Assembly (NCBI GenBank): GCA_937136755.1 | Contig: CAKZOR010000083.1 | Coordinates: 1 to 64,000 of the forward strand | Length of the DNA: 64,000 nucleotides | Source: an uncultured Flavobacteriaceae bacterium | GTDB taxonomy: Bacteria > Bacteroidota > Bacteroidia > Flavobacteriales > Flavobacteriaceae | Reading direction: 5' to 3' | In this document: one piece after another, positions 13,048 to 29,824 of the stretch | How positions within the stretch are numbered: position 1 is the stretch's first letter | Layout of the letters: every line of letters starts with the position of its first letter | Notes under the pieces: model-generated | Databases searched by the model: none | Seen by the model: only the letters and a program-made list of their open reading frames with translations | Told to the model about the DNA's origin: nothing | Made by a program: the position numbers and the translations under genes

Positions 13048-14868
13048 TTAATGATGGAGTTGCTCTTCATCAGGACCCATAGGTACTGTTTGAGGCACAA
13101 AGTCTTGCTCAGGTATCACATAATTACCTTCCTTATCTGTTTTGGAATAATCATAAGGCCAACGGTGTACTTCAGGAATTGCGCCTGGCCAGTTACCATG
13201 GATATGTTCCACAGGAGTTGTCCACTCTAAAGTGTTAGACTTCCATGGGTTTTGTTCTGCTTTCTTACCGTAGAACATACTACTGATAAAGTTATAGACA
13301 AAAACCAATTGTGCAGCAGCAGTAATGATCGCGAATACCGTGATCAATACCTGAACATTGGTCAATTCGTCGAACATTGGAAAAGCCGTATTCTCGTAAT
13401 ATCTTCTTGGAACTCCAGCCATTCCAACGAAGTGCATTGGAAAGAATACGCCGTAGGCACCTACTGCAGTGACCCAGAAATGTACATACCCAAGATTCTT
13501 GTTCATCATTCTACCAAACATCTTAGGGAACCAATGGTACACCCCAGCAAATAATCCGTAAAGTGCAGATATTCCCATTACTAGGTGGAAATGCGCTACT
13601 ACAAAATACGTATCATGAACGTTAATATCCAAGGTAGAATCTCCCAAGATAATTCCTGTTAGTCCACCAGTAATAAAAGTAGACACCAATCCAATAGAAA
13701 ATAACATTCCTGGATTTAACTGCAAGTTCCCTTTCCAAAGGGTCGTGATATAGTTAAATGCTTTTACCGCAGAAGGGATGGCGATTAATAGGGTTGTAAA
13801 TGTAAATACAGAGCCTAAGAATGGATTCATTCCAGAGATAAACATATGGTGACCCCACACAATGGTAGACAAGAAGGCAATCGCAATAATTGAGGTTACC
13901 ATCGCTCTGTATCCAAAGATTGGCTTACGTGCATTAGTAGACATTACCTCAGAAGTAATCCCTAATGCAGGCAATAATACAATATACACCTCCGGGTGAC
14001 CTAGGAACCAAAAAAGGTGCTCGTAGAGTACAGGTGACCCCCCTTGGTAATGCAATACCTCTCCTTGAATAAAAATATCAGATAAGAAGAAAGAAGTACC
14101 AAAACTTCTATCCATGATAAGTAGTAAAGCGGCAGAAAATAATACAGGAAATGAAATAACACCAATAATAGCTGTTACAAAAAACGCCCATATAGTTAAA
14201 GGCAAACGGGTCATAGACATTCCCTTAGTTCTGAGGTTTATGACCGTAACAATATAGTTAAGAGAACCTAATAAGGAAGAGGCAATAAAAATGGCCATAG
14301 ACACCAACCACAAAGTCATTCCCATTCCAGAACCGGGCTGGGCCATTGGAAGGGCACTTAAAGGTGGGTACACTGTCCATCCTGCTGCAGCTGGTCCTGC
14401 CTCTACAAAAAGAGACATAATCATGATAAATGAAGAAAGGAAGAATAACCAGTAAGATACCATGTTCAAAAACCCTGAAGCCATATCTCTAGCCCCAATT
14501 TGCAATGGAATAAGTAAATTAGAGAAAGTACCACTTAGACCTGCAGTCAATACAAAGAAGACCATGATAGTTCCGTGAATGGTCACTAATGCCAAATAGA
14601 TATCTGCATCCATGACACCGTCTGGCGCCCATTTCCCTAGTAAAGCCTCAAATATTGGAAAACTTTGACCAGGCCATGCAATTTGCATTCTGAATAAAAG
14701 AGACATAGCAATTCCAATGAATCCCATAATAAGCCCTGTAATTAAGTACTGCTTAGCGATCATTTTATGATCCTGGCTAAAGATGTACTTAGTTACAAAG
14801 GTTTCTTTATGATGATGCCCATGATCTTCGTGATGATCCTCTGAATGTGCGTGTGCGTTTGCAGACAT
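13048..14868 (-). CDS. coxA: Cytochrome c oxidase subunit I (aa3 type) with His-rich N-terminus
   Basis: HHKETFVTKYIFSQDHKMIAKQYLITGL; WFLGHPEVYIVLLPALGI; VWGHHMFISGMNPFLG; DTYFVVAHFHLVMG. Confidence 0.97.
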   Translation of the reverse strand: MSANAHAHSEDHHEDHGHHHKETFVTKYIFSQDHKMIAKQYLITGLIMGFIGIAMSLLFRMQIAWPGQSFPIFEALLGKWAPDGVMDADIYLALVTIHGTIMVFFVLTAGLSGTFSNLLIPLQIGARDMASGFLNMVSYWLFFLSSFIMIMSLFVEAGPAAAGWTVYPPLSALPMAQPGSGMGMTLWLVSMAIFIASSLLGSLNYIVTVINLRTKGMSMTRLPLTIWAFFVTAIIGVISFPVLFSAALLLIMDRSFGTSFFLSDIFIQGEVLHYQGGSPVLYEHLFWFLGHPEVYIVLLPALGITSEVMSTNARKPIFGYRAMVTSIIAIAFLSTIVWGHHMFISGMNPFLGSVFTFTTLLIAIPSAVKAFNYITTLWKGNLQLNPGMLFSIGLVSTFITGGLTGIILGDSTLDINVHDTYFVVAHFHLVMGISALYGLFAGVYHWFPKMFGRMMNKNLGYVHFWVTAVGAYGVFFPMHFVGMAGVPRRYYENTAFPMFDELTNVQVLITVFAIITAAAQLVFVYNFISSMFYGKKAEQNPWKSNTLEWTTPVEHIHGNWPGAIPEVHRWPYDYSKTDKEGNYVIPEQDFVPQTVPMGPDEEQLHH

Positions 14869-14909: not shown

Positions 14910-15965
14910 CTAGTTGGTAACTACTGTTTGAGCAAAAGTTTTTTGTTTGGCCATCCAGGCGTCATATTCTTCTTGAGTCTCCACAATAATTTTCATTTGC
15001 ATATTGTAATGTGATTTTCCGCAAATTTTATTACACAATAAAATGTAATCAAATTCCCAAGGGTCAGAATTAGGCGCACCATTTAAAGCGCGTTCTGCCC
15101 TGATGGTATTAGTACGTTTTACTTTGTCTATCACATCTGGATCTTGTCTCATTTCCTCTGTGGTGTAGATAGGAGTATATGAAAACTGGGTAATCATACC
15201 TGGTACGCAGTTCATCTGAGCTCTAAAGTGCGGCATATAGGCGGAGTGCAATACATCTTGAGAACGCATTTTAAAGTTTACTTTTCTACCTACAGGTAAA
15301 TGAAGTTCTTTCACAATCACGTCGTCTGAAGCATAGCTATCCGATGTATCTAAACCTAAAACATTCACATTGTCTATATCTATTAAACGAACGTTAGCTT
15401 CTCCAAGCACATTGTCTTCGCCTGCATAACGAGCCGTCCAATTAAATTGTTGGGCGTATAATTCAACAACTATAGGGTCATCTTGATCATTAATATCCAT
15501 AATGTTAACCCAGCTGTATAATCCCCAAAGAATTAAACCAGCTAATACCACTACGGGAATCATAGTCCAAATAACCTCTAACTTATTATTGTCTGCATAG
15601 TATAATGCTTTCTGACCTTTCCTTCCTCTGTATTTGTATGCAAAGTAATGAAGTAATGCTTGTGTGATGGTTTGAACAATAAAAATGATCACAAAAGAAA
15701 CCAACATTAAATTATCATAATCTGCGCCGTGTGCAGAAGCCGCTTTTGGCAATAAGATTTTGGTGTACTTGTAAAAACTAAAGATGGTTATTCCGTAGAT
15801 AAACACCAAGAAAACAAACATAAGGTAACCGTTATACTTATTATCGTTGTCGTTGGCAATCTGAGAAGAATCCTTCTTAATTTGAGACAACTCAAATATT
15901 TTGGTCATCTGCCATATGGCTATGGCTACTAAGACTAATACTCCTATGGTTAAAAATGCTGTCAT
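14910..15965 (-). CDS. coxB: Cytochrome c oxidase subunit II (CuA-containing, no fused cytochrome c)
   Basis: VIWTMIPVVVLAGLILWGLYSW; CuA ligand motif CNKICGKSHYNM; no CXXCH motif. Confidence 0.95.
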   Translation of the reverse strand: MTAFLTIGVLVLVAIAIWQMTKIFELSQIKKDSSQIANDNDNKYNGYLMFVFLVFIYGITIFSFYKYTKILLPKAASAHGADYDNLMLVSFVIIFIVQTITQALLHYFAYKYRGRKGQKALYYADNNKLEVIWTMIPVVVLAGLILWGLYSWVNIMDINDQDDPIVVELYAQQFNWTARYAGEDNVLGEANVRLIDIDNVNVLGLDTSDSYASDDVIVKELHLPVGRKVNFKMRSQDVLHSAYMPHFRAQMNCVPGMITQFSYTPIYTTEEMRQDPDVIDKVKRTNTIRAERALNGAPNSDPWEFDYILLCNKICGKSHYNMQMKIIVETQEEYDAWMAKQKTFAQTVVTN

Positions 15966-15992: not shown

Positions 15993-17444
15993 TTAGTAAT
16001 GAAAGTGCTTACTCTCTTCAATAAATGGGTTGTGTTTTGGTGTAATGGGGGCTTTTGTCAATGCATTAAAGACCGTGTAAATAAACAATCCTGCAAAAAA
16101 CAATACCGCACCAATTTCGGGAATACCAATAAACCACTGATCACCAACTGCAGAGGGCATAATAGCATTAAAGATATCTAAATAGTGCCCTGCAAGTATA
16201 ACAATACCTGTCATCACAACAAACCAATTTACACGCTTGAAATCACTGTTCATTAGCAACAGTAGTGGAAAAATAAAGTTCAGTGCTAACATACCAAAGA
16301 AAGGTAGGTTATAGTCTTGAATTCTAGTCACATAATAAGTTACTTCTTCAGGTATGTTTGAATACCAGATAAGCATAAACTGTGAGAACCATAAATAGGT
16401 CCAGAAAACACTGATACCAAACATAAACTTGGCTAAATCGTGAATATGACTGTCATTTACTTGTTCTAATAAACCTTTTGACTTGAGGTAAATGGTCACT
16501 AGCGCAATTACAGTAATTCCTGAAACGAACATAGAAGCAAAAATATACCATCCAAAAAGCGTAGAGAACCAGTGTGGGTCAATACTCATAATCCAATCCC
16601 AAGACATCATAGATTCAGTCACCAAGTAGAATACTAGGAATGCTGCAGATAACCTAAAGTTTTTTACAAAGTTTGTATTGTCATCTGCGGCATCTTGTGC
16701 CAGAGATAATTTTCTAGAATACCATCTGTAAGCGATCCAGCCAGATAAAAATATGGCTGCTCTAACTAAAAAGAAAGGCCCGTTTAAGTAACCTGACTTT
16801 CCTTCTATTAATGCGTCATGTGCCACCACTTCTGGATCCATCCACACAAACAAATGGTTCATATGGGCTACAGAGGCTACTAATATTAAAAATACAATGA
16901 TTCCTCCAGGTACTAAATAAGCCGTTATTCCTTCCATCACTCTAAACAATAGAGGAGACCATCCTGCCTGAGCAGCACGCTGAATGGCATAAAATGCCAA
17001 GACTCCTAAAGCGATCATAAAGAAAAAGAAAGCCGCCACATAAAGGGCTGCCCAAGGCTTATTCTGTAATTGGTGTAGTACATGTTCATCATGCGCTGCA
17101 CTGTGATCTTCACTATGTGCTTCTGAGGCATGAGGATCTGCTGAGTGGGAAGCCTCCGCTACATGTGCTTCTGTTTCATGAGCATCTGAGGCATGAGCAT
17201 CTGAAGTCATTTCGTGATCGGTCATAGAAGCATGATCCTCGTCATGAGTTTCTGTAGCTCCATCTGAAACGGCGTGATCTTCTGTTGCGTGTGCATCTCC
17301 ATGGCCGTCTGCCTGAGCAGCCACTATAGCTTTGGCCTCTGCTACATTAGATGGAGCAGACATGAATCCAATAGCAATCCCTATTGCACCCACAGCCATT
17401 AGTATAAAAGAAGCGATCTTAAGTCTGTTTGAAAAAGTGTACAT
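15993..17444 (-). CDS. actF: Alternative complex III subunit ActF (quinol:cytochrome c oxidoreductase membrane subunit)
   Basis: Polytopic protein at the ActF position of the actABCDEF-cox operon; WDWIMSIDPHWFSTLFGWYIFASMFVSG; His-rich N-terminal loop. Confidence 0.9.
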   Translation of the reverse strand: MYTFSNRLKIASFILMAVGAIGIAIGFMSAPSNVAEAKAIVAAQADGHGDAHATEDHAVSDGATETHDEDHASMTDHEMTSDAHASDAHETEAHVAEASHSADPHASEAHSEDHSAAHDEHVLHQLQNKPWAALYVAAFFFFMIALGVLAFYAIQRAAQAGWSPLLFRVMEGITAYLVPGGIIVFLILVASVAHMNHLFVWMDPEVVAHDALIEGKSGYLNGPFFLVRAAIFLSGWIAYRWYSRKLSLAQDAADDNTNFVKNFRLSAAFLVFYLVTESMMSWDWIMSIDPHWFSTLFGWYIFASMFVSGITVIALVTIYLKSKGLLEQVNDSHIHDLAKFMFGISVFWTYLWFSQFMLIWYSNIPEEVTYYVTRIQDYNLPFFGMLALNFIFPLLLLMNSDFKRVNWFVVMTGIVILAGHYLDIFNAIMPSAVGDQWFIGIPEIGAVLFFAGLFIYTVFNALTKAPITPKHNPFIEESKHFHY

Positions 17445-17460: not shown

Positions 17461-18033
17461 TTATTTAGTTAGGTCTTGCTTTAATTTTATTACATACTCA
17501 GAAACTTGCCAACGCTCTTCAATATTTAATTGACCTGCATAAGACCCCATTGAGTTTAATCCGTAATATATAGTGTGATAAGTACTTCCCTCTGTGATAT
17601 TTCTAGCAGCGTCTGCATAAGAAGGCACCCCTAAAATTTTCTCTCTTGATACTAAGGTTCCATTACCATCTCCCTTTTTACCATGACAGATAGCACAATA
17701 CACGTCATATAGCGCTTTACCTTCACTGAGATTTTCTTCATAAAGAGCGGCGTCTAGTGGACTTTTTTGAACGCGAGCCAATTCTTTGTCCTCAAGATTA
17801 TTTTCAAATTCATAAGGCAACCAACCCCTGTGAATGGTGTTTTCTACAGGTAAACCTGCTTCCATATTAGAAGGTAAGAAGGCTACTTCTTGGTAGGTTT
17901 CATAACCTACAGATTCATACATATTTGGCATATACTGGTAGTTTCTACTGTTCTTGTCTGAACAAGAAGCCAAAACTATCATAGATGCAAGGGCCAAAAA
18001 AGAATATTTTAAATCACTCATAATATTTTGCAA
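17461..18033 (-). CDS. actE: Alternative complex III subunit ActE, monoheme cytochrome c lipoprotein
   Basis: Lipobox LASCSDKN; heme motif YDVYCAICHGKKGDGNG; IEERWQVSEYVIKL. Confidence 0.92.
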   Translation of the reverse strand: MQNIMSDLKYSFLALASMIVLASCSDKNSRNYQYMPNMYESVGYETYQEVAFLPSNMEAGLPVENTIHRGWLPYEFENNLEDKELARVQKSPLDAALYEENLSEGKALYDVYCAICHGKKGDGNGTLVSREKILGVPSYADAARNITEGSTYHTIYYGLNSMGSYAGQLNIEERWQVSEYVIKLKQDLTK

Positions 18034-18034
18034 T

Positions 18035-18556
18035 CTACTTTTGGGAAACTTTTATTTCTACTGCGCCAGTCTCTGCCAATAAGGCGTGAAGATCTGCTTC
18101 GTTATCATGGATTTCAATTTCCATTAGGAAAAGGTCGTCCGTAGTTCTAACATCTGGGTTTTCTGCTTTTTTGAATGGCCACAACCTACTTCTCATATAA
18201 AAAGTAATTACCATTAAGTGGGCCGCAAAAAACACGGTAAGCTCAAACATAATAGGTACAAAGGCAGGCATATTTTCTAAATAAGAAAAACTAGGCTTTC
18301 CTCCTATGTCTTGAGGCCAATCCTCAATCATGATATAATTCATCATTGTAATGGCAACTGCCAAACCTACCAAGCCATACATAAAAGCCGTAATGGCTAA
18401 TCTAGTTGGGGCTAAACCCATAGCTTTGTCTAGTCCGTGTACTGGAAAAGGACAATACACTTCCTCTATATGATGCTTTGCCGCTTTTACTTTCTTAACG
18501 GCTAACATGAGCACGTCGTCATCATTGTAAAGCGCCTGAATAACTTTATTTGCCAT
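18035..18556 (-). CDS. actD: Alternative complex III subunit ActD (DUF3341)
   Basis: YCPFPVHGLDKAMGLAPTRLAITAFMYGLVGLAVAITMMNY; operon position. Confidence 0.92.
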   Translation of the reverse strand: MANKVIQALYNDDDVLMLAVKKVKAAKHHIEEVYCPFPVHGLDKAMGLAPTRLAITAFMYGLVGLAVAITMMNYIMIEDWPQDIGGKPSFSYLENMPAFVPIMFELTVFFAAHLMVITFYMRSRLWPFKKAENPDVRTTDDLFLMEIEIHDNEADLHALLAETGAVEIKVSQK

Positions 18557-18557
18557 A

Positions 18558-19994
18558 CTATTGATCCTTTTTAGTTTTAGATACTAATGGAGTTACCTCA
18601 TACAATGGTTTTCCAGCATCTCTTAATTTCTTATACTTTTCTCCAGAAGATTTCAATATAGTTTTCACTTCTGCCTGTGCAATTACCGGGAAGGTTCTGG
18701 CATACAAAAGGAATAAAACAAAGAAGAATCCAATGGTTCCTATAAAAATTCCAATATCTACAAAAGTAGGAGAGAACATGGTCCATGAAGAAGGCAAGTA
18801 ATCTCTGTGAAGAGAGGTTACTATAATTACAAAACGCTCAAACCACATACCAATATTTACTACAATAGAGATTCCAAAAGAGAACATGATAGAAGTTCTC
18901 AATCTTTTAGACCACATAAATTGTGGAGAGAAAACATTACAGGTCATCATAGCCCAGTACGCCCAAGCATAAGGCCCTGTAGCCCTATTTAAGAAAGCAT
19001 ACTGCTCATACTCTACTCCAGAGTACCATGCCATAAACAGCTCAGTAATGTAAGCACAGCCAACAATAGAACCCGTAATCATGATCACAATATTCATCAG
19101 CTCAATATGCTGAACCGTAATATAAGCTTCTAAGTTAGAGACCTTTCTCATAATAATAAGAAGCGTGTTTACCATCGCAAAACCAGAGAAAATAGCTCCT
19201 GCCACAAAGTAAGGAGGGAAAATCGTGGTATGCCATCCTGGGATGACCGAAGTAGCAAAGTCAAAAGATACAATCGTGTGAACAGAGAGTACTAATGGAG
19301 TTGCTAAACCAGCTAAGACCAATGAAACTTCTTCAAAACGCTGCCAATCTTTTGCACGACCGGACCATCCAAAACTCAATAAACTGTATATCTTTTTCTG
19401 AAATGGCTTTACTGCTCTATCACGAATCATTGCAAAATCTGGCAATAAACCTGTCCACCAGAATACCAATGAAACTGATAAATAAGTAGAAATCGCAAAT
19501 ACATCCCAAAGTAATGGAGAGTTAAAGTTCACCCACAAAGAACCAAATTGGTTAGGGATAGGCAGTACCCAATACGCTAACCATGGACGGCCCATGTGTA
19601 TAATTGGAAACAAACCAGCTTGTATCACTGAGAAAATAGTCATGGCCTCTGCAGAACGGTTAATAGCCATACGCCATTTCTGTCTAAAGAGTAATAACAC
19701 TGCTGAGATCAAGGTACCGGCATGGCCAATTCCTACCCACCAAACAAAGTTGGTAATATCCCAGGCCCAACCTACAGTCTTATTCAGACCCCAGGTTCCA
19801 ATCCCTGTAGAGACGGTGTATATAATACAACCCAATCCCCATAAAAATGCTACTAGAGCAATTGAAAATGCGATCCACCAATGTTTGTTTGCAGTACCCT
19901 CAACAGGAGCTACAATGTCTAAAGTTACATCGTGGTAACCTTTGTCTCCAACAACAAGTGGTTTTCGTATAGGTGCTTCGTAATGCGACGCCAT
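18558..19994 (-). CDS. actC: Alternative complex III subunit ActC (NrfD/PsrC family)
   Basis: NrfD-like polytopic protein: WGLNKTVGWAWDITNFVWWVGIGHAGTLISAVLLLFRQKWRMAINRSAEAMTIF. Confidence 0.94.
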   Translation of the reverse strand: MASHYEAPIRKPLVVGDKGYHDVTLDIVAPVEGTANKHWWIAFSIALVAFLWGLGCIIYTVSTGIGTWGLNKTVGWAWDITNFVWWVGIGHAGTLISAVLLLFRQKWRMAINRSAEAMTIFSVIQAGLFPIIHMGRPWLAYWVLPIPNQFGSLWVNFNSPLLWDVFAISTYLSVSLVFWWTGLLPDFAMIRDRAVKPFQKKIYSLLSFGWSGRAKDWQRFEEVSLVLAGLATPLVLSVHTIVSFDFATSVIPGWHTTIFPPYFVAGAIFSGFAMVNTLLIIMRKVSNLEAYITVQHIELMNIVIMITGSIVGCAYITELFMAWYSGVEYEQYAFLNRATGPYAWAYWAMMTCNVFSPQFMWSKRLRTSIMFSFGISIVVNIGMWFERFVIIVTSLHRDYLPSSWTMFSPTFVDIGIFIGTIGFFFVLFLLYARTFPVIAQAEVKTILKSSGEKYKKLRDAGKPLYEVTPLVSKTKKDQ

Positions 19995-20028: not shown

Positions 20029-23000
20029 TTATGCTTCTGTTGTGTTACGTACTTTCACGTGATAGAATACATTAGGTTTAGTTCCAACGTGCTCTAATAA
20101 ATGATACATACGGTCACTTTCCTTGAGTTCAGATACTTTAGACTGCTTGTCATTCACGTCTCCGAATGCCATTGCACCGTTTCCACAAGCTGCAGAACAA
20201 GCGGTTTGGAATTCTCCGTCTTTAATTTCACGACCATCTCTCTTCGCGTCTAGAATAGTCTTTTGTGTTTTTTGAATACACATAGAACATTTTTCCATCA
20301 CGCCACGAGAACGAACATTTACATCTGGATTCACCACCATTTTACCCAGGTCGTTATTCATGTGATAGTCAAACTCGTCATTGTTATTGTACAAGAACCA
20401 GTTAAAACGTCTCACTTTATAAGGACAGTTATTGGCACAATAACGTGTTCCTACACAACGGTTATACGCCATATGGTTTTGACCTTGTCTAGAGTGCGAT
20501 GTTGCAGCTACAGGACAAACTGTCTCACATGGTGCATGGTTACAGTGTTGACACATTACAGGCTGGAAAGCCACTTGAGGATTGGCAGACGGATCTTCCA
20601 ATTCTCCAAAACCTCCTAGTGAACCATTGTCTCCAGTAAGTCCGTCAAAATTATCTTTCTTCTCATTATCTCCTTCAAAAGTATCTTCTGAAGAGTAATA
20701 TCTGTCAATACGCAACCAGTGCATATCTCTAGATTTTCTAATCTCCTCTTTACCTACTACAGGAACATTGTTCTCTGCATGACATGCAATCACACAAGCT
20801 CCACATCCAGTACAGGCATTTAGATCAATAGATAGGTTAAAATGATGCCCAATAGATCTGTCAAATGAATCCCATAAGTCTACAGAAGTAGCTTCTACTT
20901 CTTGGTGGTCTAAAGACACCATAGGTTGTGGATTCCAATATTTAGCGTCTTTAGTATTAAAGACCTCTAGGGTAGTTTCCTTAATAATGTCGCCACGGCC
21001 CATAAGGGTTTTATGCAACTGAACACAAGCAAACTCATGCATGCCAGCCTCTTTAGAAACCGAAACCTCCTGTGTTTTTGAAAAATCATTGTACAAAGCA
21101 AAAGCATTCACCCCTACCTGCATTTCTTCTTTTAAGCCTGTTGTCTTTCCATAGCCTAAGGCCAAACCAATAGTTCCTGGTGCCTGACCTGGCTGAATAA
21201 TCACGGGTACATTTGAAAGCGTAGTACCATTAACCGTTAGACTGATATAACTACCGTCTAAACCTCCATTGGCTACATTTTCATTCACAAGGCCTAAACT
21301 AGCCGCGTCTGCTTTGGAAACTGTAGCATAATTATCCCAAGAAACTCTGGTGATAGGATCTGGAAATTCTTGTAACCAGGGGTTGTTGGCCTCTTGACCA
21401 TCTCCCATACCTGTTTTAGCATACAACACCAACTCCATGGCAGGAGCAGTAGACGCTTTAAGCGCTTTTAACTGTGCAGAAGTGTCTTGAGCTGCAAGCA
21501 TTTGAGTTGCAACTGAAGTACCCACAAACACACCGTCATGAAGGGCCTTATTCCAAGCGGTACCTCCAAGAAGCTGAGCTTCCCAATGGGTCTTTATATA
21601 ATCGTAATAAGTACCTTCTATTCCAGCCCACTTCATTAATGCCGTCTGGAATTGTCTGGTGTCGAATAATTCTTTTATAGTAGGTTGCGTAAGGCTATAA
21701 TAACCTTTCTTAACTTCCACATCTCCCCAAGACTCTAAATAGTGAGACGCAGCTCCAACCCATTGAACAGATGCAGTTGTTTCATTAGGCATGGTAGAAA
21801 AAGCTACCGTAGTACCTACATTTGAAAGCGCAGATTTAAATTCAGCTGCATTAGGCAAGCTATACACAGGATTAACCCCGTCTACAACCAATAAGCCAAC
21901 TTGACCAGCAGCCATATCTGCAATTAAAGACTGTACCGCCTTATCGCTACCTTGACGCACATATCGAGGTGCTGCAATATCGAAGGCAACACTTTCTATA
22001 GAAGCATTTAGACGCAACACTAAAGATTGCGCTTCTACACTATCAATACCGGTCAATACTACCGCTTTATTACCAGCCTTAACAACCGCTTTAGCAGCTG
22101 ATTTAACGGCAGTCATTATATTTTCAGGAAGTGCTACAGAGGTAGCTCCTGTTGTTACAATTTCATATAGCGCAGCCAAAGCTTGCGCTTGCTGTGCTGA
22201 GTTAGAAGGCACTCTTTTATCTGCAGCAGCACCTGAAAGCGTCATATTAGACTCAAACTGGTAGTGTTGAGACATTTGGCGGGTGCTTGGAATTCTGCCT
22301 TTAGCATAACCTCCGTCAAAACCACCACCTTGCCAATCACCTAAGAAATCTGCACCAAAAGATACAATCACAGTGGCTTTTTCTAAATGGTAATCTGCCA
22401 AAGCCCTTTCACCTGTAACTGCTTCAAAAGCGTCCAGTGCAGCAGACTCAGAAATAGCGTCATAAACCACATGAGAAACCTGATCCTGACCTTGTACAAA
22501 TTCAGCCACTAATTTAGACATGCTTGGACTGGCATAAGTAGGGGTTAAAAAAACCACCTTTTTCCCACTAGTCTTGGCAGCATCTAGCGCAGTAGTAACC
22601 GCATTATCTAGATCCGACCAATCAGCAGGAGCTCCATTAAATGAAGGTCCTTGCAAACGAGCACTGTCGTATAATGACAACACAGAGGCTTGAACCCTTG
22701 CATTGGCCGTTCCTTTTACTTGAGCATCTTTATTATTCTCTACTTTAATAGGTCTTCCTTCTCTTGTTTTTACAAGAATAGAGGCAAAGTCATAACCATT
22801 TGCAATAGTTGTAGCATAAAAATTAGCTACACCAGGGATGATTTGCTCCGGCTGAACTACATAAGGGATAGACTTTATAACTGGACCCTCACAGGCAGCC
22901 AATGAAGCTGCTGCAGTACTAAATCCTACATACTTCAAGAAATCTCTTCTGTTAGTATTGGAAGTAGCTAGGGTTTGCTTGTCAGATAAAAATTCCCCAG

Positions 23001-23103
23001 TAGGGATTTGTTCTACAAACTCGTTTTGTTTTAGCGTCTCAATCATGGCGTCGTTAGCAGAAAGCTCTGCTTCACTCTTCCAGTATTTTTTGTTTGATGA
23101 CAT
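20029..23103 (-). CDS. actB: Alternative complex III subunit ActB (TAT-variant molybdopterin-oxidoreductase-like plus 4-cluster Fe-S protein)
   Basis: NRRDFLKYVGFSTAAASLAACEGP (RR motif plus lipobox); CTGCGACVIACH, CQHCNHAPCETVCP, CVGTRYCANNCP and CSMCIQ Fe-S motifs. Confidence 0.95.
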   Translation of the reverse strand: MSSNKKYWKSEAELSANDAMIETLKQNEFVEQIPTGEFLSDKQTLATSNTNRRDFLKYVGFSTAAASLAACEGPVIKSIPYVVQPEQIIPGVANFYATTIANGYDFASILVKTREGRPIKVENNKDAQVKGTANARVQASVLSLYDSARLQGPSFNGAPADWSDLDNAVTTALDAAKTSGKKVVFLTPTYASPSMSKLVAEFVQGQDQVSHVVYDAISESAALDAFEAVTGERALADYHLEKATVIVSFGADFLGDWQGGGFDGGYAKGRIPSTRQMSQHYQFESNMTLSGAAADKRVPSNSAQQAQALAALYEIVTTGATSVALPENIMTAVKSAAKAVVKAGNKAVVLTGIDSVEAQSLVLRLNASIESVAFDIAAPRYVRQGSDKAVQSLIADMAAGQVGLLVVDGVNPVYSLPNAAEFKSALSNVGTTVAFSTMPNETTASVQWVGAASHYLESWGDVEVKKGYYSLTQPTIKELFDTRQFQTALMKWAGIEGTYYDYIKTHWEAQLLGGTAWNKALHDGVFVGTSVATQMLAAQDTSAQLKALKASTAPAMELVLYAKTGMGDGQEANNPWLQEFPDPITRVSWDNYATVSKADAASLGLVNENVANGGLDGSYISLTVNGTTLSNVPVIIQPGQAPGTIGLALGYGKTTGLKEEMQVGVNAFALYNDFSKTQEVSVSKEAGMHEFACVQLHKTLMGRGDIIKETTLEVFNTKDAKYWNPQPMVSLDHQEVEATSVDLWDSFDRSIGHHFNLSIDLNACTGCGACVIACHAENNVPVVGKEEIRKSRDMHWLRIDRYYSSEDTFEGDNEKKDNFDGLTGDNGSLGGFGELEDPSANPQVAFQPVMCQHCNHAPCETVCPVAATSHSRQGQNHMAYNRCVGTRYCANNCPYKVRRFNWFLYNNNDEFDYHMNNDLGKMVVNPDVNVRSRGVMEKCSMCIQKTQKTILDAKRDGREIKDGEFQTACSAACGNGAMAFGDVNDKQSKVSELKESDRMYHLLEHVGTKPNVFYHVKVRNTTEA

Positions 23104-23150: not shown

Positions 23151-24467
23151 CTAGTAGTGACACTTACCGCATTCTAAACCACCCATTTGAGCAGCCGTAA
23201 GTTTTTCTACACCGTACTTCTGAGAAAGTGCCTCGTGAATCTTGTCGTAATAAGCATTCCCTTCTACTTTCACATTGGTCTCTCTGTGACAATCAATACA
23301 CCACCCCATAGTCAGTGGACTATACTGATACATAATCTCCATTTCTTCTACTGGACCGTGACAAGTCTGACAAGCTACACCAGCCACAGAAACGTGCTGC
23401 GAGTGATTGAAATAAGCAAAATCTGGAAGGTTGTGGATTCTTACCCACTCTACAGGCTGGCTTTCACCAGTGTATTGTTGATTGTCCTCATCCCATCCAA
23501 CAGCTTTATACAATTTTTTAATCTCTTTGGTATAAAACTCATTAGTGTAACCATTCGCCAAATCTTCTTGAGAAGGACCTTCTGGATTACCCTTGTACTC
23601 ATAAATTGATTTATGGCAATTCATACACACATTCAAAGAAGGTATGCCTGAATGCTTAGATACTCTAGCAGACGAGTGACAGTAAGTACACTCAATCTTG
23701 TTGTCTCCAGCGTGAATTTTGTGAGAGTAGTGTATGGGCTGCACCGGAGCATAACCCTGATCTACACCCACCTGCATTAAAAATCCATACACATAGTAAG
23801 CACTAGAAAGCAATAAGATAATCACCGTAACCAAAACCAAAAATTGATTTTTAGCAAAAGCCAACCAAATTGGCATACGTACTTCTTTCTCTTTAGTTTC
23901 GTAAACAACACCATTGGCCTCTGCAATACTTCTCAGAGTTTTATTGACCAAGAAAAGCATCATTACCAACAAGCCAAACACCAACATTAAAGCACCAAGA
24001 ATCACTTCATTTGAAATTCCTGAGGCAGCTACTGGAGCCGCTACAGTGTTAACTGCAGCTGCAGCAGCTGGAGCGGGTGCAGGTGCGTCTGTATAAGCGA
24101 GAATATTGTCAATATCTTCGTTACTCAAAGTAGGAAAAGCAGTCATTGCTGCCTGATTGTACTCATTGTAAATGGCCAAAGCACGCTCGTCGCCTGCTTT
24201 AATTAAACTGTTGTTGTTTTTAATCCAAGCGTACAACCATTCTTTATCTCCCTCGTACTTAGCCGTAACTCCAGCAAGAGCAGGACCTGTCATTTTCCTA
24301 TTTAAGGCATGACATGCAGCACAGTTTTGATTGAATAATTGCTTCCCTTTAACAGGGTCACCAGCGGACTGGTCTTGAGCAGAAAGATTTTGAGGGATCA
24401 GTGTTAAAGCCACTAAAAACAACCCTAGGAATGAAGAAACGAGATTGCGGTATGTCACCTTTTTCAT
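23151..24467 (-). CDS. actA: Alternative complex III subunit ActA, multiheme cytochrome c; start placed at MKKVTYRNLV rather than the ORF-track start at 24569
   Basis: N-terminal cytochrome c (GKQLFNQNCAACHALNRKMTGPAL), a TM segment, then CTYCH, CMNCH, CQTCH, CIDCH, CGKCH. Met35 of the listed ORF begins a standard signal peptide MKKVTYRNLVSSFLGLFLVALTLIPQNLSAQ. Confidence 0.9.
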   Translation of the reverse strand: MKKVTYRNLVSSFLGLFLVALTLIPQNLSAQDQSAGDPVKGKQLFNQNCAACHALNRKMTGPALAGVTAKYEGDKEWLYAWIKNNNSLIKAGDERALAIYNEYNQAAMTAFPTLSNEDIDNILAYTDAPAPAPAAAAAVNTVAAPVAASGISNEVILGALMLVFGLLVMMLFLVNKTLRSIAEANGVVYETKEKEVRMPIWLAFAKNQFLVLVTVIILLLSSAYYVYGFLMQVGVDQGYAPVQPIHYSHKIHAGDNKIECTYCHSSARVSKHSGIPSLNVCMNCHKSIYEYKGNPEGPSQEDLANGYTNEFYTKEIKKLYKAVGWDEDNQQYTGESQPVEWVRIHNLPDFAYFNHSQHVSVAGVACQTCHGPVEEMEIMYQYSPLTMGWCIDCHRETNVKVEGNAYYDKIHEALSQKYGVEKLTAAQMGGLECGKCHY

Positions 24468-24695
24468 ATTATTAGATATTGTAATCTTCAGGTTTGGCAC
24501 GATTTTTACTGATATTAACGAAAAAAAGTAATCATCGGCACAATAAATTTGAGCACAAAAATACGACATAGAACTTATTTTATTGAGCCAATTCTATGTA
24601 GATTTTACTAATTTATAAACATTCTAAATAACTATTTTTTTTTAGCTTTGATTTGTAATAAGTTACCTTTGAAAAACACTTTTTCGTGAAACAAA

Positions 24696-25171: not shown

Positions 25172-28021
25172 TTATTTTAATTTCTTTTTAACCGCTACTT
25201 CTTGGAAGGCTTCTATAACGTCTAATTCTCTAATATCGTTGTAATTCTTCACCTGAAGCCCACAGTCATAGCCTTTGGCTACTTCTTTGGCGTCGTCTTT
25301 GAAACGTTTCAAAGAAGACAGTGTTCCGGTGTAAATAACGACACCATCTCTAATTAAACGAATGTTTGAATTCCTGAAGATTTTACCTGTTAGTACCATA
25401 CAACCTGCAATAGTACCCACCTTAGAAATTTTAAAGGTCTCTCTAATTTCAGCAGTACCGGTAATCTCTTCTTTCATCTCTGGAGACAACATACCCTCCA
25501 TGGCATCTTTGAGCTCATTAATAGCGTCGTAGATAATAGAGTACATTCTAATGTCAATTTCTTCCTTATCTGCTATAGACCTAGCATTCCCCATTGGGCG
25601 AACGTTAAATCCAATAATAATCGCATCTGAGGCAGAGGCCAATAAGACGTCGGACTCTGTGATAGGCCCTACCCCTTTGTGGATAATATTTACTTGTATC
25701 TCGTCTGTAGAAAGTTTTTGGAACGAATCTGTCAATGCCTCTACTGAACCATCCACATCTCCTTTTAAAATCACGTTTAACTCCTTGAAATCTCCCAGTG
25801 CAATACGCCTTCCTATTTCGTCTAAGGTAATGTGTCGCTGTGTTCTAACAGATTGCTCTCGCATTAATTGAGAACGCTTTGTCGCAATTTGCTTGGCTTC
25901 ACGTTCGTCTTCGAATACATTGAATTTATCTCCTGCTTGTGGCGCACCATCTAATCCCAATACAGAGATGGGTGTAGAAGGTCCAGCCTCCATAATATTT
26001 TGTCCGCGCTCATCTTGCATGGCTTTTACTTTTCCACTGCAAGTTCCCGCTAGTAAATAATCTCCAATTCTAAGGGTACCCGCCTGAACCAAAACAGTAG
26101 ACACATAACCCCTTCCTTTGTCTAGGAAAGCCTCTACTACTGTACCTACAGCACGTTTTTCAGGGTTGGCTTTTAATTCTAAAAGCTCTGCTTCTAGCAG
26201 GACTTTTTCTAAAAGTTCTTTAATACCCAATCCTGTTTTAGCAGAAATATCGTGGGATTGTATTTTACCTCCCCAGTCTTCTACCAATAAATTCATCTGT
26301 GCCAGTCCTTCTTTAATCTTATCTGGATTGGCAGCAGGTCTATCTATTTTATTAATCGCAAATACAATAGGCACACCAGCAGCTTGCGCATGGCTAATGG
26401 CCTCTTTTGTTTGCGGCATAATGTCGTCGTCGGCAGCTACTACAATAATAGCAATATCAGTCACTTGAGCACCACGAGCACGCATGGCCGTAAAGGCCTC
26501 GTGACCTGGTGTGTCTAAGAAAGCGATTTTCTGACCACCCTCTAAAGTTACCCCGTAGGCACCAAAATGCTGTGTAATTCCCCCACTCTCGCCGGCAATC
26601 ACATTTTCTTTTCTAATATAATCTAAGAGCGACGTTTTACCGTGATCTACGTGACCCATTACCGTTACTATTGGTGCTCTAGACACCAAATCTTCTGCAG
26701 TGTCTTCTACCTCAACAATAGCCTCTTCAATATCTGCAGTGACAAACTCTACTTGGTAACCGAATTCTTCTGCTACTATAGAAAGTGTTTCTGCGTCTAA
26801 ACGTTGGTTCATGGTAACCATGATCCCAAGAGACATACAGGCAGAGATAATCTGAGTGGTAGAAACATCCATCATGGTAGCTACTTCATTTGCCGTAACA
26901 AATTCAGTTACCTTGAGGATTTTGCTTTCTAATTCTTGCTGTTCTAGGTCTTTTTCTGTTTGCTCCCTGTGAGACTCACGTTTGTCTCTTCGGTACTTAG
27001 CCCCTTTTCCTTTTTTGGATTTCCCCTGTAATTTCTCTAGGGTTTCTCGTACTTGCTTTTGTACTTCCTCCTCTGTGGGCTCTACTTTTGGCGCAGCATT
27101 AAATCGTTGGCCCGCCGCAGCAGCTTTCCCTCTTGGTCCTGTCCCTCTCTGTCTTGGTGCGGCTGAAGCTCCAGCGCCAGGACCTCCAGAAGGAGATACT
27201 ATTCTTTTACGTCTTTTTTTATTGTCGTCATTGCTAGAAGAAGCAACAGGTTTTTTCTTGGGCTTATTGAACTGAGACAAATCTATTTTGTCTCCCATAA
27301 TTTTAGGCCCACTTAATTTCTTGTACTGTGTAGTAATAGATCCCGTAGGCTGCTCTGCTTCTGCCAATGGCTTAGCCACTGACGTTTCTTTTTTAGCCTC
27401 TTCAGACTTCTCTGACGCCTCTTTTTTAACCGACTCAGTTGTAGCGGCCACAGTAGCCTCTTTTTCAACAGTTTCTTTTAGTGGTGCTTCTTTTACTGGC
27501 GCTTTGGCTGCTGGCGCAGCCGATACTATTTTAAGTCCAGCTGCTTTTGGCGCAGCTGCCTTAATAACTTCTTGTTTTGGGGCTGCCTTGGACGCTGCTT
27601 CTTTAGGAGTAGCAGGCGTATCGTTTACAGCCTCTGGAGCAGGAATTTCTTTGGCAGTTGGAGCGTCTAAATCAATTTTACCTACCGTAGTTGGCCCACT
27701 AAGAGATCCTTTCGCTTTAACCACCTCGGCAGCTCTTGCTTCCTTAGCCAAACGCTTTTCTTCTTGCTCTTTTTCAAGTTCAATTCTAATAGCCTCCTTT
27801 TCTTTTCTCTTTTCTTCACCCACTTCCTTGGAAGCAACTTTCTTGCTCATATCCGTTTGGAACTGGTCTAAAAGAACCTGATGCACTTCTTCCGATATTT
27901 TAGTAGTAGGCCTTGCCTCAATAGCATGCCCATTAGCCGCTAGGTAGTCTACCGCTCTATCCAGTGAAATGTTTAATTCTCTTAGGACTTTATTAAGCCT
28001 AATGGTTGCATTCTCTGCCAT
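25172..28021 (-). CDS. infB: Translation initiation factor IF-2
   Basis: [40 protein letters not shown]; low-complexity N-terminus. Confidence 0.98.
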
Positions 28022-28118
28022 AAAAAAAATTTGTGCTTACTAGTATTTTTCTGCTAATATAAATAATGAAATAGGTTCAAGGATGAAATCCTTTAATTAT
28101 TTGTGTATTACCTACTGC

Positions 28119-29351
28119 TTAATTTTCTAATTCTTCTTTAAGAATTCTAACAACATCTAAAATTGTCTCCTCTTCTAGATCTGTTCTCTTTGCTAAATCT
28201 TCTACATCTTGTTCCAACACCGCTCTCGCTGTATCCAAACCGATCTTAGACAATTCTTCAATAATCCATGACTCTATTTCATCGGAGAATTCTGTCAATT
28301 CAACATCTTCCTCCACCCCTTCTCTAAAGACATCTATTTCATATCCAGTCAATTGACCAGCCAATCTAATATTGTGACCGCCACGACCAATAGCCTTAGA
28401 AACTTCCTCTGGCTTCAGGTAGACTTGAGCAGTCATTTTTTCGTCGTCTAACTTTACAGAAGAAACCCTGGCTGGACTCAAAGCCCTAGTAACCAATAAA
28501 GTAGGGTTATTTGTCCAGTTTATTACATCTATATTCTCGTTGCCCAATTCTTTGACAATCCCATGAATTCTCGATCCTTTCATTCCAACACAGGCGCCCA
28601 CTGGATCTATACGATCGTCATAAGAATCTACCGCAACTTTAGCCTTTTCTCCTGGAATTCGAACTGCCTTTTTAATAGTTATTAACCCGTCAAAAACCTC
28701 TGGAATTTCCTGGAAGAACAGTTGCTCTAAGAATAGTGGCGAAGTCCTGCTCATAATAATAGCAGGCTTGTTTCCTTTTAATTCTACACTTTCAATAATC
28801 CCTCTAACATTGTCACCTTTTCTAAAGAAATCTGCTGGTATTTGCTTGTCTTTCGGGAGGATAATTTCGTTTCCTTCGTCGTCCAATAAAATAATCGCCT
28901 GATGTCTAATATGGTGTACCTCAGCGGTGTATATCTCCCCTTCTAGGTCCTTAAATTGTTTGTAAATCGTAGTGTTGTCATGCTCGTGAATCTTGGCTAT
29001 TAAATTCTGACGCAACGCCAAAATAGCCCTTCTTCCCAAGTCAATTAACTTCACCTCTTCTGAAACATCTTCTCCTACTTCAAAATCTGGCTCAATCTTT
29101 CTAGCTTCGGTAATAGATATCTCCTCATTTGGATCCATCACATCTATATCTTCTACTACCACTCTGTTTCTCCAAATCTCTAAATCCCCTTTGTCTGGGT
29201 TAATGATTATATCAAAATTGTCATCTGATCCAAATTTCTTTTTCAAAGCACTTCTAAAAACCTCTTCTAAAATGGCCATTAGGGTTACTCTGTCAATAAA
29301 CTTGTCATCTTTAAATTCTGAGAAAGATTCAATAAGCGCAATATTTTCCAT
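28119..29351 (-). CDS. nusA: Transcription termination/antitermination protein NusA
   Basis: DPVGACVGMKGSRIHGIVKELGNENIDVINW; EVSKAIGRGGHNIRLAGQLTGYEIDV. Confidence 0.98.
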   Translation of the reverse strand: MENIALIESFSEFKDDKFIDRVTLMAILEEVFRSALKKKFGSDDNFDIIINPDKGDLEIWRNRVVVEDIDVMDPNEEISITEARKIEPDFEVGEDVSEEVKLIDLGRRAILALRQNLIAKIHEHDNTTIYKQFKDLEGEIYTAEVHHIRHQAIILLDDEGNEIILPKDKQIPADFFRKGDNVRGIIESVELKGNKPAIIMSRTSPLFLEQLFFQEIPEVFDGLITIKKAVRIPGEKAKVAVDSYDDRIDPVGACVGMKGSRIHGIVKELGNENIDVINWTNNPTLLVTRALSPARVSSVKLDDEKMTAQVYLKPEEVSKAIGRGGHNIRLAGQLTGYEIDVFREGVEEDVELTEFSDEIESWIIEELSKIGLDTARAVLEQDVEDLAKRTDLEEETILDVVRILKEELEN

Positions 29352-29362
29352 CTTGCTATCTA

Positions 29363-29824
29363 TTAAAATTTAAGGTTCACTTTTGCTTCTTTAATATCTG
29401 TAAAAGCAATCTCTTGCTCTTTAGTCACGGTTATTTTGCCCTTCCCTATTGGTTTGGGCTCTCTGGCTTTCCACTGTAATTTAATTCCGTGATCTAGGAT
29501 TTCTATGAGATTCCCCTCTACCGTTTCATTTTCAGTGCGAACCGTCAGAGAACGGTTCAGGTTTTTTTTGTATTGCCTAGGCATTACCAATGGAGCTGTG
29601 GCGCCTGCAGAGGCTACGTCCAATCCAAAATCTATGATTTCTCTGTCTAAATTGTGCTCAATAGCACGACTTACATTCATGCAATCTTGAAGTGTTACAC
29701 CAGTATCTCCATCTAATACCACGGAGATTTTTTTGTCTGTTGTAATCTTAAAATCTATTAAAAACAGGGATGGATTTTCTTCCAAAGCTGTGTCTAATAA
29801 GGTCCTTACTTCTTTTTCGAACAT
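29363..29824 (-). CDS. rimP: Ribosome maturation factor RimP
   Basis: Position in rimP-nusA-infB; IEHNLDREIIDFGLDVASAGATAPLVMPRQYKKNLNR. Confidence 0.92.
   Translation of the reverse strand: MFEKEVRTLLDTALEENPSLFLIDFKITTDKKISVVLDGDTGVTLQDCMNVSRAIEHNLDREIIDFGLDVASAGATAPLVMPRQYKKNLNRSLTVRTENETVEGNLIEILDHGIKLQWKAREPKPIGKGKITVTKEQEIAFTDIKEAKVNLKF

Follow-up and report, generated by a model that had tools for sequence, protein, structure and literature searches.

A large group of bacteria uses alternative complex III (ACIII) in place of complex III, and one membrane subunit of ACIII, ActF, raises the question of why such a protein should carry a long, histidine-rich loop. We examined this in the genome of an uncultured Flavobacteriaceae bacterium, in a stretch of 64,000 nucleotides (contig CAKZOR010000083.1, positions 1 to 64,000; hereafter the window) in which the NrfD-like ActF, of 483 amino acids (aa), is encoded at 15993..17444 on the minus strand. 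ActF was matched by phmmer to chain F of the Flavobacterium johnsoniae complex (6btm_F; E=3e-194) in an alignment that spans residues 1-483, and the same chain was the best match to its AlphaFold model in Foldseek (rank 1, TMt 0.96, E=2.5e-32). A Pfam scan of ActF at E 0.001 gave zero matches. The gene order is actABCDEF-coxB-coxA, which places ActF within the act cluster.

An earlier reading of the same DNA, the original prediction, had described a low-complexity segment with about 15 His behind the first transmembrane (TM) helix of ActF. This His/Asp/Glu-rich segment is real, and our data confirm and extend the observation: the 76 residues quoted at the time are exactly ActF residues 46-121 (17082..17309, minus strand), of which 15 are His. 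Of the limits assigned to the segment, 17309 coincides with that of the quoted residues; the other, 17073, reaches H124, and the quoted residues stop at 17082. The whole loop between TM1 and TM2 comprises residues 32-123; its 92 aa include 15 His and 23 Asp/Glu, a single Lys/Arg and no Cys. At the genome His frequency of 2.03%, a stretch of 92 residues would contain 15 or more His with a probability of 6e-10. A 380-kb sample of the genome holds 319 open reading frames (ORFs), and of these ActF and the oxidase subunit CoxA are tied as the most His-dense, with 9 His in 40 aa. General His richness of the genome was rejected as an explanation, given that overall His content is 2.0% and only these two proteins stand out in the 380-kb sample. 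A DNA pattern search of the same genome for His-rich segments returned fewer matches than its control.

To place the loop in context, ActF sequences were collected from 180 other loci. In 142 Flavobacteriaceae-like sequences the mean length of the TM1-TM2 loop is 59 aa (36-115) and its mean number of His is 10 (5-19), with Cys absent; a His/Asp/Glu-rich, Cys-free periplasmic loop of hypervariable length is found in essentially all Flavobacteriaceae examined. Among these 142 the His fraction is 0.170 +/- 0.025, the number of His tracks loop length (r=0.75), and the loop in the window ranks fourth longest. The term 'inserted' used for the segment is accordingly misleading, and a strain-specific insertion was rejected, as the loop stands at the same TM1-TM2 place family-wide; nor do the data support a loop that is particular to the strain or freshly expanded. 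The proposed comparison of ActF lengths within the clade did reveal variation, with loops of 92, 87, 78, 71, 71 and 53 aa in close relatives with near-identical cores, and absence of the segment from sister strains, which the original prediction had named as counting against it, was not observed.

Substitutions were then counted in 17 disjoint pairs of equal-length loops, excluding both conserved ends and not counting Asp/Glu swaps as losses. Mid-loop His was replaced at 6 of 102 positions (6%), alongside 28 synonymous changes of His codons, and the losses for other residues were 22% for Asp/Glu, 30% for Ala, 41% for Ser and 52% for Thr. The bootstrap difference in favour of His retention was 0.165, with 0/2000 replicates at or below zero. 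The loop thus combines a His density far above background with its retention, as a metal buffer should. The loop is nothing unusual as a component of a known protein, being shared by the whole family, yet it appears to be under unexpected, His-specific selection.

AlphaFold places TM helix 1 at residues 6-28 (17361..17429; predicted local distance difference test (pLDDT) 95-98), then a short helix of residues 34-48 (17301..17345) followed by disorder, and a helix of residues 113-158 that contains TM2 (16971..17108; all on the minus strand). Residues 50-108 have a pLDDT below 50 and are predicted to be disordered. A lack of stable fold is also suggested by 6btm_F, in which 402 of 464 residues are modelled and the ~62 unmodelled residues are, we infer, the TM1-TM2 loop. 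The helices of the model agree with those of 6btm_F, ten TM helices being expected of an ActF subunit; sidedness was taken from published work, which puts the N- and C-terminus of ActF in the cytoplasm (PMC5928083, PMC8076601), and the TM1-TM2 loop is therefore periplasmic. Neither a quinol site nor a cofactor lies near it (PMC5928083). The idea of a His-rich tether is in this respect upheld, with AlphaFold, the gap in 6BTM chain F and published topology (PMC5928083, PMC8076601) all backing a disordered, periplasmic segment.

The residues around His follow a rule. Acidic residues are enriched two positions before (z +13.9) and two positions after (z +12.8) each His, with Gly/Ser at -1 and +1. 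The same acid spacing was found in 14 His-rich loops from other Bacteroidia families (z +5.9 at -2 and +4.5 at +2). Within the variable mid-loop HH (z -9.6), HxH (z -14.4) and HxxH are depleted and His spacings of 4, 6 and 10 are enriched. At the membrane, an HxxHxxH motif (H118, H121 and H124; 17073..17093, minus strand) sits where TM helix 2 extends into the periplasm, within the AlphaFold helix that starts at residue 113; equivalents of H118 and H121 are present in 142/142 Flavobacteriaceae sequences and that of H124 in 128/142.

These data allow us to propose, as a tentative reading somewhat short of an even chance, that the ActF loop buffers divalent metal ions with low affinity, as a tethered, multivalent His/carboxylate chain on the periplasmic side of the ACIII-aa3 supercomplex. 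The chain would be disordered and built from repeats of a [D/E]-small-His-small-[D/E] unit, with the HxxHxxH extension of TM2 as its C-terminal anchor. Mixed imidazole/carboxylate ligands may bind Zn2+ and Cu2+ weakly, and the loop could then hold labile metal close to the oxidase, or keep stray metal away from the hemes and Fe-S centres; it might additionally damp local pH. Loop length could drift freely, since nothing but the number and density of His/carboxylate units would matter. Metal is preferred over protons here on account of the HxxHxxH motif and because other His-rich metal binders of the periplasm are known, among them the PcoB domain. With metal and protons taken together, a buffering role next to the oxidase is probable.

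Several points weigh against this proposal. Tight metal-binding His tracts are clustered as HH and HxH, the opposite of the ActF loop, and the avoidance of both motifs argues against tight chelation; the loop is at most 'like a weak buffer' and is not classed with the His-rich periplasmic metal buffers. It has few Met and no Cys, which makes Cu(I) unlikely, and the neighbouring genes that were scanned included none recognisable as a copper chaperone. The one-step codon neighbours of His (Tyr, Pro, Leu and Arg) suit an acidic linker poorly, which may inflate the apparent conservation of His. Many Bacteroidia have short ActF loops, and several of these relatives (L112, L130) retain the adjoining aa3 operon with CuA; the loop is therefore not required for oxidase metallation.

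Outside the Flavobacteriaceae the loop is usually short (5-30 aa), and long His-rich loops occur in several other Bacteroidia families (L245, L248, L249 and L250). Parsimony on a tree of the ActF core gave 9 switches between His-rich and not, a count that is not a frequency as the sample was partly picked for long ORFs. Members of other Flavobacteriales families (L110, L123-L127 and L129) have a different TM1-TM2 segment, the end of which resembles HCHFSQEEIERAETIDDVIYITKHYF; it seems to be a small folded insert that replaces the His-rich loop. In one genus (G038; L308-L327) a conserved non-His motif, TANFVDEARGEEGYSE / TANFVDEARGEEGYSEAAMEHATDLKPEGHG, occurs within an otherwise variable ActF loop.

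The same spacing that disfavours tight chelation keeps alive a second explanation, in which the loop is a pH-responsive or proton-buffering tether at the proton-release side that buffers or shuttles protons, or alters its extension with pH, and binds no metal. Protonation of all His would shift the net loop charge from -12.5 to a near-neutral -2.5, with H/(D+E) at 0.71 +/- 0.15, and His ringed by carboxylates should show a raised pKa. The avoidance of HH and HxH and the periplasmic location (PMC8076601, PMC5928083) suit this role. Many Bacteroidia dispense with the loop, which speaks against such a function, and we regard it as rather unlikely.

An inert, hydrophilic entropic tether, for which any acidic disordered chain would suffice and in which His would reflect the history of repeat expansion alone, draws on the DNA of the loop. 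Here 13-mers resembling CATGAGCATCTGA occur in 5 copies at >=75% identity, at spacings of 33, 15, 15 and 51, and near-repeat 13-mers number 29, against 5.2 in a codon-order shuffle (1/500 reach it) and 16 in a synonymous-codon shuffle (45/500). The excess over the latter is not clear, and most of the repetition therefore lies at the amino-acid level. A tandem array was rejected: TRF reported none, and the repetition of the protein accounts for most of the likeness in the DNA. One or two recent rearrangements can be traced. A 15-nt tandem duplication at 17177..17204 (minus strand), containing the 13-mer TCAGATGCTCATG twice, adds DAHAS and is single or absent in sister genomes. A 48-nt block at 17115..17173 (minus strand), bounded by 11-nt direct repeats CAGAAGCACAT, is present in the window and in L052 and absent from L031 and L032. 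Loop length thus changes through repeat-mediated events. The suggestion of expansion by slippage holds for these one or two recent events, and not for the DNA repetition overall, which mostly reflects repeated protein sequence. The close relative L052 (G010) has its ActF in two frames, matching query residues 1-332 and 323-483 separately, probably through an assembly or sequencing error.

Both events and the fast turnover of length fit an inert tether, as does the 60-aa loop of L104 (G033) with only 1 His. Three features argue against inert filler, namely the retention of His far above that of its neighbours, the near-invariant HxxHxxH and the acid spacing around His with its avoidance of HH and HxH, the acid spacing being shared by other families. 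The His fraction is, in addition, eight times background and narrowly held over loops that cannot be aligned. An inert tether is, on this evidence, distinctly unlikely. That the loop or its HxxHxxH docks onto the oxidase, a periplasmic cytochrome, peptidoglycan or an assembly factor is very improbable: the near-invariance of the motif at the membrane, the conserved TANFVDEARGEEGYSE in the loop of G038 and relatives and the supercomplex formed by F. johnsoniae ACIII and aa3 (PMC8552683) are in its favour, and against it the loop is mostly unalignable between genera and predicted to be disordered.

The original prediction had paired the ActF loop with a His-rich CoxA 'tail', and this pairing did not survive. 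The CoxA tract, MSANAHAHSEDHHEDHGHHHKETF, is N-terminal (14797..14868, minus strand), is conserved across Flavobacteriaceae and is enriched in HH and HxH, the reverse of the rule in the ActF loop. By canonical subunit-I topology it is presumably cytoplasmic. A single metal site common to ActF and CoxA was rejected, as the two tracts would lie on opposite sides of the membrane (the CoxA side being a matter of general knowledge) and have opposite spacing. Their His numbers correlate weakly (r=0.19). In two genomes, G033 (L104) and G052 (L102), a His-poor ActF loop goes together with a CoxA N-terminus without HH, and their His use elsewhere is normal and their CuA motif intact. Both belong to a single clade, in which a relative richer in His lies between them, and G267, a congener of G033, has 5 His in CoxA. 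This co-loss hints at a shared pressure on the two tracts, from too few cases.

A broader synthesis would have the supercomplex carry its own periplasmic metal/proton buffer, a hypervariable loop in which only the His/carboxylate unit is conserved, spaced against tight chelation and repeatedly gained and lost in Bacteroidia, with a separate CoxA N-terminal tract of the tight-binding type across the membrane. We consider this picture as a whole doubtful.

The remaining genes of the cluster, all on the minus strand, are those expected of ACIII and its oxidase. Upstream of actF lie the genes for ActE, a monoheme cytochrome c (17461..18033; PF13442), ActD (18035..18556; PF11821), the NrfD protein ActC (18558..19994; PF03916), the Fe-S protein ActB (20029..23103; Fer4 families) and the multiheme cytochrome c ActA (23151..24569; cytochrome families). 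Downstream are those for CoxB, subunit II of the aa3 oxidase (14910..15965; PF02790/PF00116, with the CuA motif CNKICGKSH), and CoxA, subunit I (13048..14868; PF00115, E=2.5e-137). The genes infB, nusA and rimP (window 25172-29824) adjoin the act operon on the same strand.

Together these data indicate that ActF, an ACIII subunit lacking a cofactor or quinol site, bears an unmodelled and apparently selected periplasmic appendage across the whole family Flavobacteriaceae. A cryo-EM model can thus miss a family-wide feature that sequence comparison marks as selected. The loop is shared by the genetically tractable F. johnsoniae, for which the structure is solved and deletions of actA and actE exist (PMC8552683). 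It should be simple to delete, and lends itself to the question of whether a respiratory complex can act as its own buffer for metals or protons. No role or mention of it was found in the literature searched by term, a search that did not extend to the F. johnsoniae structure paper (Sun et al. 2018).

Among known systems, ActF of F. johnsoniae (6BTM chain F) bears its His-rich loop in the corresponding position and shares the HxxHxxH, but its loop is ~20 residues shorter. The ActF proteins of Rhodothermus marinus (6F0K), Roseiflexus (6LOD) and Chloroflexus (8K9E) share the fold (TMt 0.83-0.87), whereas their phmmer alignments do not start before TM2 (query 135/136, chain residues 46-68) and no comparable long loop aligns. 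Copper resistance depends on the disordered, His/Met-rich periplasmic domain of PcoB, which also stabilises PcoA (PMC12509749). Like the ActF loop, this N-terminal domain, which has 17 His, is periplasmic, poorly conserved and disordered; unlike ActF, PcoB is an outer-membrane efflux protein that uses Met besides His and stands outside any respiratory complex (PMC12509749). SilE is reported to be a disordered periplasmic metal binder or sponge (PMC5008109), as proposed for the ActF loop, but is a free protein and serves for Ag+. The His-rich loops of PA4063 are reported to be disordered without metal and to bind zinc in the micromolar range (PMC8561739); in contrast to the ActF loop, they belong to a folded, soluble periplasmic protein.
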